DNA of 43,607 nt from Candidatus Andersenbacteria bacterium RIFCSPHIGHO2_02_FULL_46_16 (GCA_001817065.1 MHHQ01000013.1:24410-68016), one strand, 5' to 3'; shown: positions 5,516 to 13,498, counted from the first letter of the stretch. Made by a program: numbers and translations. The notes: generated by a model not told the origin, from the sequence alone.

Positions 5516-5863
5516 CTATAACTGCTTAATTTTTTGTTCATGACGCTGTACGGATTCTTTCACTATTTCCATATCTACCGTTAATTTGCCAGTCTGTTCA
5601 AAAATGACATCCACCTTCTCCGTCATATGATCCATTCTCTCCGTCATATGATCCATTCTCTCCGTCATATGATCCATTCTCTCCGTCATATGATCCATTC
5701 TATCAGTGAGGTGCGAGACGTTTTCTTTTATTGTAGAAACATCATCTGCGATCAGCTCTAATTTATCGTCAGTGTTTTTAATCAGTTTTTCAATCTTGTC
5801 ATCAGTATGCCTAGCGTGTTTCGCTAAAATATCTTCCAGTTCTCGCTTTTCTGTTTTATCCAT
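5516..5863 (-). CDS. Coiled-coil protein with perfect heptad repeats
   Basis: Likely start is MDKTEKRELEDIL (the ORF track start at 5926 is too long). Contains MTERMDH repeated, matching 7-residue heptads. Confidence 0.6.
   Translation of the reverse strand: MDKTEKRELEDILAKHARHTDDKIEKLIKNTDDKLELIADDVSTIKENVSHLTDRMDHMTERMDHMTERMDHMTERMDHMTEKVDVIFEQTGKLTVDMEIVKESVQRHEQKIKQL
5618..5701. repeat. 21-bp tandem repeat, 4 perfect copies (ctccgtcatatgatccattct)
   Basis: Read directly in the sequence. In-frame within the coiled-coil CDS. Confidence 0.95.
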
Positions 5864-5891
5864 GACCAAATGATACCGTATCTGTGAATTC

Positions 5892-6080
5892 GCCGCAAAG
5901 CAAAATAAGACCAATCTGAACGACAAGGCGACAAATATTGATATTCGAGATTATGCCAAGCACGTCCTCTTGACCGGCATGCGCGAGGACAAACAAGCAA
6001 TCATGGTCTGCGTCACTACGACGCTATATCTGAAATCAAAAACGATCAGGACAATGAAGCCGAGGGCGGCAAGACTTTAG
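5892..6080 (+). pseudogene. Remnant of serine recombinase C-terminus
   Basis: Translates to AKQNKTNLNDKATNIDIRDYAKHVLLTGMREDKQAIMVCVTTTLYLKSK...; nearly matches TATNIDIRDYAKHILMTGKREDKQAIMACVTTTLYLTQK in the intact recombinase at 10787-12118. Confidence 0.8.
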
Positions 6081-6127
6081 AACCCCGAACTATTTTCCAG
6101 CTCCAAAAGCAGTATATATATATCCCC

Positions 6128-6180
6128 GACCTACGCCCACAGGGACAGATCTTTCGAAACTCACCGAACGACTCAACTTA
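6128..6180 (+). pseudogene. Short remnant of serine recombinase catalytic-domain segment
   Basis: Translates to DLRPQGQIFRNSPNDSTY; matches the intact recombinase 'EIRTHGQIFHNSPNEKF'. Confidence 0.6.
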
Positions 6181-7029
6181 TTAAACACTTTTCTTTAAAA
6201 TTGTTATTGGGGAATGGGGTTTCGTTGATTCAGTTTCACTTACATATCCAGTAGAATATATCGTCTCGTGGTTCCCGCTTGGAGGTAAGGAGTTTGAAAT
6301 CAAGCAAATACCTCCAACCTTAAGCACCCGTTCCATTTCCGATTGATAATCTTTTTTATATGAATCTTCAGTTAGAATATCGCCTATTCCCGAGTTTAAA
6401 AGATTCACTGATTTATCTGGCAATCTCTTCATAAAGCTAACTGCATCTTCGGCTACTAAATTAAATGGAATTGGCTCATAACCAACTCTAAGTTTTTTAG
6501 TGCGAAGATAACTTCGTACGAGACTTTGAAAATTATAAGTTTCAACACCAATATAGCCTTTAGCCCCCAGCAAGCAAGCCATCTCATAACTCCTATTGGG
6601 CCTTACAACTCCATCACCAGCGCCAAGGTCAACAACAACAGAGTCTTTGAAAGCTTCTTGTAACTTATCAAATTCTTCTGGCTTATTCTTTTTTAAATTA
6701 TCCAAAAAAGTCTCAAGATCTATAACGAAAGCGGTAGGCATGTCTATGCCAGGATTATGATGTATAGCCTTGAATGTTTCAGTGGCACTCTGTGGACAGT
6801 TATCTAAAGAGATCAAATCCTCGTCCAACCTTATCTCTGGAACTAGCACGTCTAATGAAGTGATTTTTTCTTTTAAAAAACCAATTTCTTCTGGTTTAAC
6901 ATCGTTTACATAATTCAATATTCGAGCGTCTAGAACACTATTCGCGACTTTATCCTCTCTCGCTTCGTTCGACATTTCTGGAACGGGCTGTTTCGGTATT
7001 GGATTTAACCGTGGTTCGCGTTCGTTCAT
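6181..7029 (-). CDS. Class I SAM-dependent methyltransferase-like protein
   Basis: Motif I 'SVVVDLGAGDGVV' and later 'MERVLKVGGICLISNS'. Confidence 0.65.
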   Translation of the reverse strand: MNEREPRLNPIPKQPVPEMSNEAREDKVANSVLDARILNYVNDVKPEEIGFLKEKITSLDVLVPEIRLDEDLISLDNCPQSATETFKAIHHNPGIDMPTAFVIDLETFLDNLKKNKPEEFDKLQEAFKDSVVVDLGAGDGVVRPNRSYEMACLLGAKGYIGVETYNFQSLVRSYLRTKKLRVGYEPIPFNLVAEDAVSFMKRLPDKSVNLLNSGIGDILTEDSYKKDYQSEMERVLKVGGICLISNSLPPSGNHETIYSTGYVSETESTKPHSPITILKKSV

Positions 7030-7182
7030 GCCTTTATGATAGACGAGCTTGCCAACTTAGTCTATCAGTTCGGCAGTCCGACTTGGGTACAAAAATAACC
7101 GCCTTTTTGAGCGATTATTTTATAAGTTCGCCGTTATGGTCTAGAACCTTAGTATGGGATTTTACGGGGTCTTTGGCAAAGC

Positions 7183-7325
7183 AAAATGGGACAAATGAGA
7201 CACTACATGGCATATATAGAAAGTGTTCCATTTCTAGGGTTAACTACTAACATATCCTCCCGAAAGTACGGTTTCGTGGCGTTATATAAAATGGGACAGT
7301 GGTCGGAACGACTGTCCCATTTTTT
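7183..7325. repeat. Structured repeat unit A (~143 bp) ending in a 13-bp stem hairpin
   Basis: Begins AAAATGGGACAAATGAGACAC and ends AAAATGGGACAGT-ggtcggaacg-ACTGTCCCATTTT (perfect inverted repeat 7288-7300/7311-7323). Confidence 0.7.
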
Positions 7326-7341
7326 AGCATCGTGCCGAAAG

Positions 7342-7482
7342 AAAATGTTACAAAATGTTACACTATTTTGGCTATTTGAAAAGTGTAATTTATTAGCAAA
7401 AACTAGAAAGATAGTAGTCTCAAATAGCGGTTTAGTGGCGGTTTACAAAACGTTACAGTCCAAAGCGACTGTAACGTTTTGT
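7342..7482. repeat. Structured repeat unit B (~141 bp) ending in a 16-bp stem hairpin
   Basis: Begins AAAATGTTACAAAATGTTACAC and ends ACAAAACGTTACAGTC-caaagc-GACTGTAACGTTTTGT (perfect inverted repeat). Same layout as unit A. Confidence 0.7.
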
Positions 7483-7517
7483 ATATGCCAATAAGGCAAA
7501 TTATAGATAATACTTTG

Positions 7518-7592
7518 TAGGAGGGGTGGGATTTGAACACCACGACCTTTCTCTTATAAGGAGAACGCTCTACCAGGCTGAGCTACCCTCCC
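7518..7592 (-). tRNA. tRNA-Ile-like (anticodon UAU), T-stem with 1-nt bulge, no encoded CCA
   Basis: Minus strand GGGAGGGTAGCTCAGCCTGGTAGAGCGTTCTCCTTATAAGAGAAAGGTCGTGGTGTTCAAATCCCACCCCTCCTA. D-stem GCTC/GAGC; anticodon arm TTCTC-CTTATAA-GAGAA; T-stem GTGG(T)G/CCCAC. Confidence 0.75.
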
Positions 7593-7593
7593 A

Positions 7594-10500
7594 TTATTTT
7601 TGAGCAAGCCACACGACAAAGTGCCGTTCTTCTTTGAGCTTGATCTTCTCCACCTTAGCAAAGCCTGCCTTCCTTAACAAACCTTCCATTTCACTTTCGC
7701 TTAAGTCGTAGGCCATGTTAGGTAAACCTTCTTCATTGCCATTCTTGTCTCTTAACAAAAGCTGAGCAAACCGCACGTTATCTTCAGGTTTACGTTCGAC
7801 ATAAAACACCAAGTCTTTTTGCTCCTTCGAATCCCTAATGTTTAGCCGTGCCGCTACTTTCCTGTCAGGAATTTCTGAATCCCTGAATTTGTCTACATAC
7901 AAATAACCGCTTGGCTTCAGCAAGTCGTAATAAACCTTAAACGTATCAAGTAGGGCTTGTAATGTTTTTTCTTTATCTACTACTGTCTTAGTATTCCAAC
8001 CGCCTCCGGCGTATATAACGGTGTTGCCGCGGTTGAATAGCATATCAAAAGAGGATGGCGAGAAATGATGAGGCAAATCAAGCCAAGTAGATTTAGTTAC
8101 TTTGTGGTCGATGTCTAATTCTTTAAGGCTTTCATAAAACGGTTTGGTTGTTCCTTCACTCATGTCGGCGGTAGCAAGGTTGTATCCCTTTTGTAGAAGT
8201 TCGGTAGAGAAAAAGCCTGGCCCCACACAAGTATCCAGTATTGCGGACTCATTATTGATGCCAATCTTTTCGAATAGTTTTTCCATTTCTTCCACGTACG
8301 CCTTGCTGTCGTAGAGTAATTTATACTCAGTTAGCTTCCATAGTTCAGCAAAGGTCGGCGTGGTTTCCACGTCTAGTTCTTCCAGCGCGTCTTTGTCAGA
8401 TATGTATTTCATTTCCGTACCGATCGCTAAGTTTCTTTCTGCATTCGGACCGAGAGGAATGTTGAAAAACTTAAACGAGCCGCTGCCTTGCTCCTGCAAG
8501 AATAGTTTGGTGTACAGCTCACCTGCTCGGGTAACGGCATTATCGCACATGGCCGGAGTGAAGGCGACCAACATTTTGTGCTTGGCCTGTGTTTTGGGGG
8601 TTTTAACCTTCTCTGATAAATACCCAAAGCTTACCACCGGAGCCCTACCAAACAATTCGGCCAAAAACTCCGAGATTTCCACGATGCAGAACTTACCACC
8701 CGTTTTTGACTGGAATGTTTCAAAATTACAAACCTTGATTTGCTGGTTATCAAGAATGTTGATTGAGATATCGATTTCTTCGTCGGACGCAGTGTAGTCA
8801 ATAATGTCAGAAAAATATTCCTTATTTTTGCCAACAAATGACTTAAAGTTGGCGCGCAAGATTGTTTCGCGGAAGAAATAGGCGCGGCCGTTCTTGAGAA
8901 TATCCTTCTTGCCCAGCTTATATTGCTTGGCAATGTCCAGATACTCTTCTGGAACGCCTTCCGTACCGGCAAATTGCGTCAGGATTTCATCACGGTAAGA
9001 TTCAGCCGTCCGATTCGATTTATTTGCATTGGAAAGACGCAGCTCATTAATGCCGGTAGTGTCATTGGCAATAATAATGAGTTTGGCGCTAATACCATTG
9101 GCTTTCAGAGTAGCCACCACATTGCAAGCTAGCTCCCAGGTAAACAATGGAAAACTGGTCATGCCAAATTCCTCAAGCAAGCCATGAAGCCGTTCGGGCA
9201 GCAAAGGCTTAATGCTCGGCCAAAACTTATTTTCCTGCATATCTGGCACGGCTAGGAAGTGCCCACCCATAACTATCACTTCTGTCTCGCGAGGGTTATA
9301 TATTGCCGATTTTATTTTTTCAATGATCGCTGGCGCGGAATTAACAATCGCCGTGTTCTTGTAATAAATTTTATTCCTCAAAGGCTCCAGATTAGGATTC
9401 CGAATTAACCCTTTCTTCTTATCAAAAAACATTTCAATTTCGCCTAGCAGATGGTCAATATCCTCTTGGTCATTGTAGACACCCAAGCTCACACGTAAAG
9501 TTTCCTGACCCAGTTTTTCCGCAAGAGGAAAGGCGCAGTGAGCGCCATAACGGACACAGACTTTTTGTTTTGCCAAATAGTCGCCAAGTTCTTTCGTGCT
9601 GTATTCCTTCACGCCGAAGGATACCACCCCGATTTTCTGGTCTAGGCTAGTCGGGCCAAACACAATAATATCTTCTATTTGCTTCAGACCGTCTAATAAA
9701 TATGCTAATAATTCAAGCTCGTGTTTTCTTATTTCATCGAAGCCAATCGAGCGAATGAAGTTTACCGCCTTGGAAAGCCCGACAATGTTTGAAGTGTTGG
9801 GAGTCCCGCCTTCAAGTATCACGAGAGATTGGTAATATTCGGGAGAGATAACGTCCGTCTCTTTTCCATAGGTAACGGCGACGTTCTTGACCGTGCCACC
9901 ACCCACGCGCACCGGTGCTAACAAATGATGAATATCCTTAGAAGCATATAGTACTCCTACACCATCAGGTCCATACATTTTGTGACTTGAAAACGCGTAT
10001 AAATCCGCATTGTATTTTTTAACATCAACTGGCAGATGCGCTATGGATTGCGTGCCATCAATCACATACAGAATACCCTTGTTATGTCGCTTCACGATTC
10101 GGCCGATACCCTCTACATCATTGATGTTGCCTAGCACATTTGAGCAATGACCAACCGCTACAATCTTCGTTTTATCGTTAAGTACCCTTTCAATTTCCTC
10201 AATGTCGACAATACCATCTTTAAGTCCAACCATCCGTAACTTTGCACCTTTCTTTGTAAGTTTAAGATACGGCAGCATGTTGGAATGATGCTCAGACACT
10301 GAAATAATAATCTCGTCCTCCGACTGAATGTGGTCGGCGATAGAATCAACAGCAAGGTTTATGGAATCTGTCGCGTTGTTGGTAAAAACTATTTCATCTG
10401 CGTCAGCCCCGATGAACTTAGCGACGTTGTCTCGAGCTTCTTCTAATAGCTCCTTGTTGCGGATAGCGACTGCGTGCGCGCTTCTTTCGGGATTGCCTCG

Positions 10501-10620
10501 ATATTCTAAAACTTGCTCCACGGCGCGAACGACCAGATCGGGTACCTGAGTTGTGGCCGCGCTATCAAGATACGTAAGGTTATGACGACGGAAAAAGTTA
10601 AATTTTGATTTGATTTCCAT
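7594..10620 (-). CDS. Fusion protein: cysteine desulfurase-like (class V aminotransferase) + unassigned domain + SAM-dependent methyltransferase
   Basis: N-terminus has SufS/CsdA-like 'YLDSAATTQVP', PLP-Lys region 'YAFSSHKMYGPDGVGVLY' and Cys region 'VCVRYGAHCAFPLAEKLG'. C-terminus has 'AILDTCVGPGFFSTELLQKGYNLATADMS' (SAM motif I). The middle ~375 aa was not recognised. Confidence 0.85.
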   Translation of the reverse strand: MEIKSKFNFFRRHNLTYLDSAATTQVPDLVVRAVEQVLEYRGNPERSAHAVAIRNKELLEEARDNVAKFIGADADEIVFTNNATDSINLAVDSIADHIQSEDEIIISVSEHHSNMLPYLKLTKKGAKLRMVGLKDGIVDIEEIERVLNDKTKIVAVGHCSNVLGNINDVEGIGRIVKRHNKGILYVIDGTQSIAHLPVDVKKYNADLYAFSSHKMYGPDGVGVLYASKDIHHLLAPVRVGGGTVKNVAVTYGKETDVISPEYYQSLVILEGGTPNTSNIVGLSKAVNFIRSIGFDEIRKHELELLAYLLDGLKQIEDIIVFGPTSLDQKIGVVSFGVKEYSTKELGDYLAKQKVCVRYGAHCAFPLAEKLGQETLRVSLGVYNDQEDIDHLLGEIEMFFDKKKGLIRNPNLEPLRNKIYYKNTAIVNSAPAIIEKIKSAIYNPRETEVIVMGGHFLAVPDMQENKFWPSIKPLLPERLHGLLEEFGMTSFPLFTWELACNVVATLKANGISAKLIIIANDTTGINELRLSNANKSNRTAESYRDEILTQFAGTEGVPEEYLDIAKQYKLGKKDILKNGRAYFFRETILRANFKSFVGKNKEYFSDIIDYTASDEEIDISINILDNQQIKVCNFETFQSKTGGKFCIVEISEFLAELFGRAPVVSFGYLSEKVKTPKTQAKHKMLVAFTPAMCDNAVTRAGELYTKLFLQEQGSGSFKFFNIPLGPNAERNLAIGTEMKYISDKDALEELDVETTPTFAELWKLTEYKLLYDSKAYVEEMEKLFEKIGINNESAILDTCVGPGFFSTELLQKGYNLATADMSEGTTKPFYESLKELDIDHKVTKSTWLDLPHHFSPSSFDMLFNRGNTVIYAGGGWNTKTVVDKEKTLQALLDTFKVYYDLLKPSGYLYVDKFRDSEIPDRKVAARLNIRDSKEQKDLVFYVERKPEDNVRFAQLLLRDKNGNEEGLPNMAYDLSESEMEGLLRKAGFAKVEKIKLKEERHFVVWLAQK

Positions 10621-10703
10621 CGTCTAAAATGCCGTTAAAATACTTGTTTGCGTAGAATAGTTATTGCACCAATAATGCGTCAATTTTGTCTCTTGATCAA
10701 GCT

Positions 10704-10727
10704 AACTCGTCATCGAACTCGTCATCG
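10704..10727. repeat. 12-bp direct repeat, two copies (aactcgtcatcg)
   Basis: Perfect tandem duplication directly upstream of the recombinase gene. Confidence 0.85.
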
Positions 10728-10786
10728 ACTTACCTACAGTTTGAGCCTGGACTTGTATGCAAGACAGCGGCACTGTTCCTGCTACC

Positions 10787-12118
10787 ATGGTTAATATTAA
10801 CTACTGCCTATACGCCAGAAAAAGTACCGAAAGTGATGAATTACAAGCCCTTTCGATTGATTCGCAGATTAAGGAGATGTTGGCACTAGCAGAACGTGAT
10901 GGCGTTACGGTAAAAGAAATCAGGCGTGAAAGCCACTCGGCCAAAGAGTCGTTTACGAGGCCGGTGTTTTTACAACTGATTCAGGATATTCGTGCCGGAC
11001 AGTTTGGTGGCATTCTCACGTGGGCGCCTGATCGCCTATCGCGTAACGCTGGTGATCTTGGTGCTTTAGTCGACCTTATGGATCAAGGGCGATTAGAGGA
11101 AATTAGAACCCACGGTCAGATTTTTCATAATTCCCCAAATGAAAAATTCCTACTCATGATTTTATGTAGCCAAGCGAAACTAGAAAACGATAATCGAAGC
11201 GTCAATGTAAAGCGAGGACTGCGTGCCAAATGTGAGATGGGCTATCGCCCAGGCATTACGCCTTTAGGATATATAAATCTTAAATATGAGATCAAAGGAC
11301 AGAAAAAAGTTGTTCTTGATCCTAAGCGTGCACCAGTAATAAAAGAAATGTTCGAAAAGGCGGCTTTGGGTTGTAGCGGCCGCGACCTACTACATTGGAT
11401 GAATGAGATTAAGGGTTTCCGCACCAAGACTGACAAAAAAGTGGCGCTATCAGCTATCTACGTGATGTTACACAACCCGTACTATTCTGGCCGCTTTGAA
11501 TACCCTAAAGCCGGCGGCAAGTGGTACAAGGTTAAGCATCAATCAATAGTGACTAGAAAACTTTGGAAAGAAGTGCAGGAAAAATTAACGGTTGATCCGA
11601 AATCAAAGCCAGGCACTAAGGTTTTTGACTTCACAAAAATGCTAACGTGCGGAAGTTGCGGATCAGGTGTGACAGCTGAAGAAAAATGCAAGGACATAAT
11701 TGATGGCACAAAACGGCGGTACGTCTATTATCACTGCACCAGAGCCAGAAACTTAAACTGCAAGGAGCCGTATATTCGCGAAGAAGCCCTGGTTAATCAG
11801 TTAGTAAACATTATCGACAAAGTGGATATCGATAAGCTAGCGGTCGAGAATAGATTCACCGAAGACCTAATCCGCTATCGTGGGTTTATGGAAAGCGTGC
11901 TCAAGAAAAGCGGCCAGGTAATGACGGCAACGAATATTGATATTCGCGACTATGCCAAACATATTCTTATGACGGGCAAGCGCGAGGATAAGCAAGCTAT
12001 CATGGCTTGTGTTACTACAACGCTTTATCTAACACAAAAACGAATTATGTTAAAACGAGTTACTTCCGCAAAACAACGTACCAACCTGGATGATAAGGTC
12101 CATGAGTACCATCCATAA
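10787..12118 (+). CDS. Large serine recombinase (resolvase + recombinase + zinc ribbon domains)
   Basis: 'YCLYARKSTE', 'TWAPDRLSRNAGDLG', 'NEKFLLMILCSQAKLENDNRS', 'CGSCGSGVTAEEKCK...YYHCTR..NLNCKEP'. Start taken at MVNINYCLYARKS. Confidence 0.92.
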   Translation: MVNINYCLYARKSTESDELQALSIDSQIKEMLALAERDGVTVKEIRRESHSAKESFTRPVFLQLIQDIRAGQFGGILTWAPDRLSRNAGDLGALVDLMDQGRLEEIRTHGQIFHNSPNEKFLLMILCSQAKLENDNRSVNVKRGLRAKCEMGYRPGITPLGYINLKYEIKGQKKVVLDPKRAPVIKEMFEKAALGCSGRDLLHWMNEIKGFRTKTDKKVALSAIYVMLHNPYYSGRFEYPKAGGKWYKVKHQSIVTRKLWKEVQEKLTVDPKSKPGTKVFDFTKMLTCGSCGSGVTAEEKCKDIIDGTKRRYVYYHCTRARNLNCKEPYIREEALVNQLVNIIDKVDIDKLAVENRFTEDLIRYRGFMESVLKKSGQVMTATNIDIRDYAKHILMTGKREDKQAIMACVTTTLYLTQKRIMLKRVTSAKQRTNLDDKVHEYHP

Positions 12119-12860
12119 TTTTTGTAATATCCAAGGTGGAGTAAATTTGCAGTTGCTTAGCTTGACCATAGTGGAGGGCAGGTAGACCATCGTATGCGCT
12201 AGGGTTTTCTGTATAATATCCAGCCACTTGGTTTAAGAAAAATAAGGTACACGACCCTGACTCATCGGTAATTTCTTTTACGGAACGAAAGACATAGCCC
12301 TCGTTTGTTAGTGTTTGATAAATATCCGGTGCGGTTTCCTGTGGATTACCAAAAGTATGGGCAATGGTACTAGTAAAATCCAATCCTGCACTTGTTTTAA
12401 CGTGTGGCAATGCGCCAAAATCTTCTACTATATTATCTGTAATTCTTCGCGACCAATCAACTACTGGGTAATGACAAAAAGTATACAATAGTGATTCGGT
12501 GTCACGCAGGCAGACTATGGTCGAGAAAAAGTCAGCATTTGATACATACCAAATAGTGCCGTCAATCGGATCCAGTGTTAGCGTTAATCCGTTTGTGCCT
12601 TTAAACTTAGCCACTGATGGTGTATCTTCTTCGGCAATAAGTTGGCATTCAACTAATTTTGTTTTAGCCATTTCTTGAAGGATAGCTTCTTGCACGGCGA
12701 GATCAGCATCGGTGACTATATCAATACCGCGTATGCCTGTTTTGTGCTTATAATGAGTTTGAACATTGGGGCGTAATTGCAAAGCTAATTTACCAGCCCG
12801 TTTAATTACTGGTTCAAGTGCGATAAGGATATTTATGTATTCGTCGGTATTACCAATCAT
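12060..12860 (-). CDS. Inositol monophosphatase-family protein
   Basis: 'DIVTDADLAVQEAIL', 'LIAEEDT', 'LTLDPIDGTIWYVSNADFFSTIVCL' (FIG superfamily metal-binding motifs). Confidence 0.85.
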   Translation of the reverse strand: MIGNTDEYINILIALEPVIKRAGKLALQLRPNVQTHYKHKTGIRGIDIVTDADLAVQEAILQEMAKTKLVECQLIAEEDTPSVAKFKGTNGLTLTLDPIDGTIWYVSNADFFSTIVCLRDTESLLYTFCHYPVVDWSRRITDNIVEDFGALPHVKTSAGLDFTSTIAHTFGNPQETAPDIYQTLTNEGYVFRSVKEITDESGSCTLFFLNQVAGYYTENPSAYDGLPALHYGQAKQLQIYSTLDITKIMDGTHGPYHPGWYVVLRK

Positions 12861-13387
12861 ATCTTTTGAATAAGTTTATCCATTTGTTGAGGTGAGGTTG
12901 CTCTTAAAATCCGTGATTGATCTACTCCTTGCAAAGCAGCTTCCACATCCTTTCTCTCGCCTCTACTAAACACTAGCCAAAGAAATTTCAAATCCAGTTT
13001 TTCTAGCGCTTCTAGTGGTAATTCGGGCCGGCTTACTCTGCGATGCTTAAACCAACGCAGAAATACACGCCAGGCGCATAGTAAACCAGAGTAATCAAGA
13101 TAGATTATAATATCCGCCATTCTTACGCGATCAGCCATTTTGGCATCAATATAGCCTTCTGTGATCCATTGTTCTTGTTCCAGCAGTTTTGCATGTTGGT
13201 CAAGATACTCTTTCTCCGGAACTGCTTCCCAAGCGCCTTTCCAAAATATTTTGTCCATATGGATCACTGGCAAATTGAGTTTTTCGCCAAGATGGCGAGC
13301 AAGAAGACTTTTTCCCGAACCACTAATTCCTACGATCGCGATTTTGCTAGGATTCGTGATAGCTGATATTTGTGTAGGCTTTTGCAT
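12857..13387 (-). CDS. P-loop kinase / adenylate-kinase-like (topology modulation/FlaR-like) protein
   Basis: Walker A 'IAIVGISGSGKSLLARHLGEKLNLPVIHMDKIFW', 'WITEGYIDAK...ADIIIYLD'. Confidence 0.75.
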   Translation of the reverse strand: MQKPTQISAITNPSKIAIVGISGSGKSLLARHLGEKLNLPVIHMDKIFWKGAWEAVPEKEYLDQHAKLLEQEQWITEGYIDAKMADRVRMADIIIYLDYSGLLCAWRVFLRWFKHRRVSRPELPLEALEKLDLKFLWLVFSRGERKDVEAALQGVDQSRILRATSPQQMDKLIQKI

Positions 13388-13427
13388 TGGATAGGAAATG
13401 GTCGCGTTTAGGGCCTGTTTTTAGTGT

Positions 13428-13498
13428 TCCGGGACGTGGATTCGAACCACGATTAGGAGGACCAAAACCTCCCGTCCTGCCGTTAGACGATCCCGGAA
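13428..13498 (-). tRNA. tRNA-Gln (UUG), no encoded CCA
   Basis: Minus strand TCCGGGATCGTCTAACGGCAGGACGGGAGGTTTTGGTCCTCCTAATCGTGGTTCGAATCCACGTCCCGGA. Canonical cloverleaf, anticodon TTG. Confidence 0.93.

Follow-up and report, generated by a model that had tools for sequence, protein, structure and literature searches.

The region considered here lies on contig C13 (positions 24410-68016) of the 1.36-Mb genome assembly of Candidatus Andersenbacteria bacterium RIFCSPHIGHO2_02_FULL_46_16 (own genome, G000); this whole stretch of 43,607 nucleotides is called the window. The host and the relatives used for comparison are Patescibacteria. A large serine recombinase stands there beside a gene for a 1008-aa protein, the fusion, which joins a cysteine desulfurase, a domain called below the orphan domain and an S-adenosylmethionine (SAM) methyltransferase. 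An initial annotation of the sequence had listed the recombinase, a remnant of it, a 282-aa open reading frame (ORF), hairpins, a tRNA-Ile(UAU) and the fusion. All were found present, and they are given below with the other features of the region.

5927-6041 (+): recombinase relic, outside the proposed element; 66% protein identity to residues 388-437
6181-7029 (-): 282-aa methyltransferase-like ORF, outside the proposed element, to the left of the element's left end; does not co-occur with the fusion in other genomes
7126-13429 (no strand): proposed integrative element (6.3 kb), core GTTC / GTGTTC; left-end homology with G002 and G003 from TTCGCC, right end at the tRNA-Gln 3' end, recombinase-free sites in relatives
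7127-7182 (+): element left end; 82% over 57 bp to G002 (L040:5644-5700, E 6e-9), also in G003:C37
7183-7325 (+): hairpin unit 1, TGGGACA motif (two direct copies and a hairpin of that motif); 73% match in G003:C14
7341-7486 (+): hairpin unit 2, TGTTACA motif; fold z -4.9, related tandem motif at C24
7517-7592 (-): tRNA-Ile(UAU), second copy in the genome; Rfam 58.4 bits
7594-10620 (-): fusion, 1008 aa; cysteine desulfurase (1-397), orphan domain (~405-775), GSMT-like SAM methyltransferase (~780-1008)
10787-12118 (+): large serine recombinase (ORF opens at 10757); Resolvase, Recombinase and zinc ribbon
12060-12860 (-): inositol-monophosphatase-family protein, putative cargo; Inositol_P 2e-13
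12857-13387 (-): P-loop kinase-like protein (FlaR/PRK08118-like), putative cargo; NF005994 1.8e-36, below its cut-off
13390-13429 (-): att-like right end, where tRNA-Gln has its 3' end; 41-bp match (88%) in G010 (L056:6260-6300), close to a relic of a recombinase
13426-13497 (-): tRNA-Gln(UUG), proposed target gene

The stretch 7126-13429 is probably a small integrative element, set by its own serine recombinase at the 3' end of tRNA-Gln within a hotspot of ~14 kb, with the fusion as its main horizontally mobile cargo; sulfur transfer followed by methylation is proposed as the function of the latter.

Proposed insertion site, ends and recombinase

The initial annotation had suggested a comparison with related genomes for an empty site. 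Recombinase-free sites are found, at the level of gene order, in three genomes of the same family (G001, G007 and G008), i.e., between dnaX and a gene which we take to be xseA (a name given by reading its sequence, not by the profile scan) lie tRNA-Gln(UUG), next to dnaX, and then a few small genes. On the window side, xseA precedes the first window position by ~0.9 kb and is ~14 kb away from tRNA-Gln. The closest recombinases (73% and 71% identical) belong to two other genera (G002 and G003) and are also located at dnaX/tRNA-Gln, with other cargo. As far as these sequences can be read, the tRNA-Gln 3' end is a site repeatedly used by this recombinase family. The ~14-kb stretch is a variable hotspot with relics of earlier insertions; both flanks had been described as housekeeping or ordinary chromosomal genes, which does not hold for the left one, since it lies in this stretch. 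The MgtE-like gene of the same interval is missing from 12 relatives and was thus rejected as a left-flank marker, being a useless anchor. A coiled-coil gene with 21-bp tandem repeats (HMTERMD) is present at 5516-5926, and a homologue adjoins the left end of an element in G003:C37.

Concerning the left end, the sequence TTCGCC(A/G)(C/T)TATGGTCTAGAACCTTA is common to the window (7127), G002 (L040:5645) and G003:C37, i.e., to three genera, and homology ends there; the left-end sequence (7127-7182) is single copy in the own genome. Concerning the right end, the 3' flank of tRNA-Gln (13390-13430) matches (88%) a site of G010, and the contig stretch with this site also has a recombinase relic. In G002, the direct repeat AGTGTTC flanks the element; in the window, AGTTC corresponds to it on the left and AGTGTTC on the right, where it overlaps tRNA-Gln at its 3' end. 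Such repeats (GTTC/GTGTTC at the ends of the window element, AGTGTTC in G002) are too short to be decisive. The window flanks were also joined by script, giving CCCGGAAC-TTATAAAATAATCG (short form CCCGGAAC..TTATAAAAT), and the recombinase-free G007 site, CCCGGGAACACTTATAAAATTCG (short form CCCGGGAACACTTATAAAAT), resembles this sequence. The 9-mer TTATAAAAT, common to both, has a frequency of 1.5e-5 per position in the own genome, and a match by chance seems unlikely. On these grounds the element is most likely located at 7126-13429; we infer its exact crossover and its mobility.

The recombinase ORF extends from 10757 to 12118 (+). The start at 10787 fits the homologues better. The intact recombinase described at 10787-12118 is confirmed, with its Resolvase, Recombinase and zinc-ribbon domains. 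The family comprises 17 intact members (loci) from several Patescibacteria genomes and has a YARKS motif in common. Ten of the 17 have within 2 kb an opposite-strand tRNA, the 3' end of which faces the 3' side of the recombinase; these tRNAs are specific for Gln, Trp, Ser, Asp and Lys. From the tRNA density, the probability of this count by chance is P ~1e-11, a rough value since related loci are not fully independent. The placement is unusual for a serine recombinase family, because tRNA 3' ends are the typical targets of tyrosine integrases, while serine-recombinase elements lie within genes (reviews PMC5704250 and PMC4383910).

The three domains and the very short end repeats are those of large serine recombinase elements (Tn4451/TndX type, phage serine integrases), whereas the position of the family at tRNA 3' ends differs, as does the lack of a relaxase: no relaxase or conjugation gene was found in the Pfam/NCBIfam scan of the element's four protein genes. 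The similarity to the Ccr recombinases of SCCmec is distant (CcrB, 128 bits vs. a cut-off of 900) and the target is another one. Family recombinases (L042-L054) often adjoin a recurring set made of a ParB-like/DNA methyltransferase protein, a small helix-turn-helix (HTH) protein and a ~500-aa protein (clusters c1, c2 and c3); from the reading of ORFs, DNA-methyltransferase-like cassettes would often lie near members of the family. The G002 element of this family, with AGTGTTC on both sides, is 3.3 kb long (L040:5641-8976) and contains two tRNA-Ala genes.

The fusion and its surroundings

The fusion matches Aminotran_5 (3e-110) and, in its C-terminal part, a Methyltransf_31/GSMT-like domain. 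Residues 1-397 are a SufS-type cysteine desulfurase: Lys214 (pyridoxal phosphate, PLP) and Cys362 (catalytic loop) align with SufS cysteine desulfurase structures and are invariant in the three homologues. The fold family, the PLP lysine and the GxHCAxP cysteine loop are thus the same as in SufS (type II cysteine desulfurase); on the contrary, the desulfurase is here fused to two further domains and reaches 360.7 bits, vs. an NCBIfam cut-off of 475.1 for TIGR01979. Residues ~780-1008 are a SAM methyltransferase nearest to glycine/sarcosine N-methyltransferase (4.7e-5 here, 2.8e-11 in the homologue L017). The similarity is weak (23 and 43.5 bits vs. a cut-off of 350 for NF051855), and the domain is here part of a fusion. 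The orphan domain (~370 aa) gives nothing at useful E-values in Pfam, NCBIfam, PHROGs and PDB, and it was found in 0 of 379 other genomes sampled from the phylum. Structure predictions, based on three sequences only, are unusable (predicted local distance difference test, pLDDT, of 33.6 for the orphan and methyltransferase part and 35.0 for the orphan domain alone). As far as these tools show, the three-part fusion would be an undescribed architecture.

A peptide-pattern scan of 84,980 genomes, a method limited to close relatives, gave two homologues of full length (L016 and L017), in two distant Patescibacteria (83% and 68% identical). The fusion has been horizontally transferred between distant bacteria, because the identity of housekeeping proteins from the same genomes is 27-55% (ftsZ 51%, trxR 35%, uvrA 48-55%, uvrC 27-35%). 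It is also under purifying selection, since synonymous differences approach saturation whereas nonsynonymous ones stay at ~0.1-0.2 in every domain (ratio of the two, pN/pS, ~0.12 to L016). Scans of viral contigs for the fusion and the 282-aa methyltransferase gave nothing, and phage and plasmid collections gave generic methyltransferases only.

In L016, the fusion comes after an XRE-type regulator and is oriented divergently from a recombinase (34% identical) which directly adjoins tRNA-Ser. In L017, the fusion is located among uvrA, uvrC and mutM (names given by sequence reading), with no recombinase nearby. The association with serine recombinases considered in the initial annotation is thus observed in L016 and not in L017. 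Inverted 211-nt repeats (L016:6307-6517 and 9862-10072) bracket the HTH and fusion genes of L016. They were rejected as transposon ends: the same repeat occurs without the fusion at G000:C16:53329 and in other genomes, and it was treated as a dispersed repeat.

The hairpins at 7288-7323 and 7441-7486 are the sole ones passing the filter used within the window, and the fold z-scores of the two units are -2.0 and -4.9. The match of unit 1 in G003:C14 lies in another element of the same recombinase family. Between the units (7183-7486) the motif changes in concert (TGGGACA vs. TGTTACA), direct and inverted copies alike. The own genome contains no other full copy of the units, which were thus rejected as a genome-wide mobile repeat; the tandem TGTTACA motif is found twice at C24 (beside another family recombinase, i.e., the second recombinase locus of the own genome) and once at C32. 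In G003, the motif abuts the apparent end of a transposase gene at two contig ends. The units may be derived from insertion sequences.

The tRNA-Ile(UAU) begins 1 nt past the stop codon of the fusion, on the same strand. A bulge in the T-stem and a G1-U72 pair mark this copy, and of the tRNAs compared with it a tRNA-Met comes closest (72%). Pattern searches hinted that the island carries the only AUA-reading tRNA of the cell; this was ruled out by the tRNA-Ile(UAU) found at C14:565-637 in a scan of nearly the whole genome. The latter is located beside a divergent tRNA-Val(GAC), an arrangement which is standard in this bacterial family (relatives L104-L112). Since only two CAU tRNAs and no TilS-like ORF with an SGGxDS PP-loop were found in the own genome, AUA is probably read there without lysidine.

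The following function is proposed: (i) the PLP-dependent desulfurase domain would take the sulfur of cysteine, giving a persulfide on Cys362; (ii) this sulfur would be passed in cis from Cys362 to a substrate held by the orphan domain; (iii) the C-terminal SAM domain would methylate the product, leading to a methylated thio-compound or a thio-modified nucleoside. Beyond the desulfurase and methyltransferase family assignments, we infer this chemistry. A small molecule is slightly favoured over tRNA or DNA as the substrate, given the relatives of the methyltransferase and the lack of a conserved partner gene.

Alternative explanations and significance

Several points weigh against a recombinase-set element at 7126-13429 with the fusion as cargo: (i) the tRNA-Gln of G002 is inverted relative to dnaX, thus the hotspot is rearranged; (ii) the fusion of L017 has no recombinase nearby, therefore the gene also moves or persists without one; (iii) the TTATAAAAT match is found in one of four relatives only, and the predicted crossover is called from a core of 4-7 bp and the flank of one relative; (iv) neither a circular form nor a second strain was seen; (v) the orphan domain has no relative in the four databases searched and its predicted structures are of no use. 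The region could instead be a patchwork, i.e., no discrete 6.3-kb element but the outcome of successive insertions, deletions and recombination events at a tRNA hotspot, where the fusion and the recombinase are neighbours by accident. Relics and repeats are plentiful, such as the remnant of the recombinase, the ~14 kb of variable DNA and another recombinase in G002, and L017, with its fusion but no recombinase, also fits. However, a divergent recombinase-fusion pair is found again in L016, where the recombinase is a different one and lies beside a tRNA, and the left end is common to three genera; a patchwork is unlikely. The degenerate recombinase C-terminus reported ~6 kb from the intact gene, in the same orientation, was found at 5927-6041 (+), with 78% DNA identity to 11926-12040. 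Because remnants of related recombinases also recur near family members in C24 and G010:C4, it is best read as the leftover of an older insertion by a different, related recombinase, outside the element. An element bounded by this remnant and the intact copy (5.9-12.1 kb), with both methyltransferases as cargo, would explain the two C-termini in the same orientation 6 kb apart. It is hardly credible: the copies, 66% identical as proteins, are too diverged for a single insertion event, similar relics exist near family members elsewhere, the left end is conserved at 7127 and the 282-aa methyltransferase does not co-occur with the fusion. The edges of ~5.9 and ~12.1 kb first assigned to the island are thus abandoned, the right one in favour of tRNA-Gln at 13.4 kb. 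So is the 282-aa methyltransferase as cargo: the ORF, the methyltransferase identity of which is weakly supported (Methyltransf_31, E=0.25), lies outside the element and is absent from both other fusion-bearing genomes, and the idea of one system with the fusion was rejected for this lack of co-occurrence.

As regards function, the fusion could be a defence or DNA-modification enzyme (Dnd/Ssp-like sulfur modification), as the initial annotation had suggested. The PADLOC SspA/DndA models match the desulfurase domain (1e-63), and family recombinases often adjoin DNA-methyltransferase-like genes. These matches are nevertheless those of a desulfurase family below cut-off (DndA 157 bits vs. 480 in NCBIfam), the closest relatives being SufS-type. 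No DndBCDE/SspBCD partner was recognised among the scanned window neighbours (those of L016 and L017 being read from ORF lists only, and whole genomes not being searched), and the L017 fusion is alone among DNA-repair genes; a defence role is very unlikely. Desulfurases feed tRNA thiolation, and the fusion could instead modify a tRNA, perhaps the tRNA-Ile(UAU) encoded 1 nt away on the same strand. This is rather improbable, for in both L016 and L017 the fusion has no tRNA after it and the methyltransferase domain is nearest to small-molecule methyltransferases. An integrated recombinase element with an unusual cargo is thus retained from the initial annotation, on account of the recombinase-free sites of G001, G007 and G008, of the same site in G002 and G003 and of the layout of L016; its edges, the 282-aa methyltransferase as cargo and the defence function are not.

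A wider proposal is tentative and rather doubtful: the fusion would be the sole enzyme of an undescribed pathway of sulfur insertion and methylation, its central domain would be a new persulfide-accepting family, and small serine-recombinase islands at tRNA 3' ends would spread this pathway of a single gene, together with spare tRNA genes, among Patescibacteria. Little seems to be published on the mobile elements of Patescibacteria, and to our knowledge serine integrases are not known to use tRNA 3' ends. A family of serine integrases acting at the tRNA 3' ends of several isoacceptors would allow integration hotspots to be mapped in these uncultured cells, and would provide candidate integrases for tRNA sites. 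Moreover, as the sulfur donor, the orphan domain and the methyltransferase are on one chain, a single recombinant protein could reveal a new sulfur chemistry.

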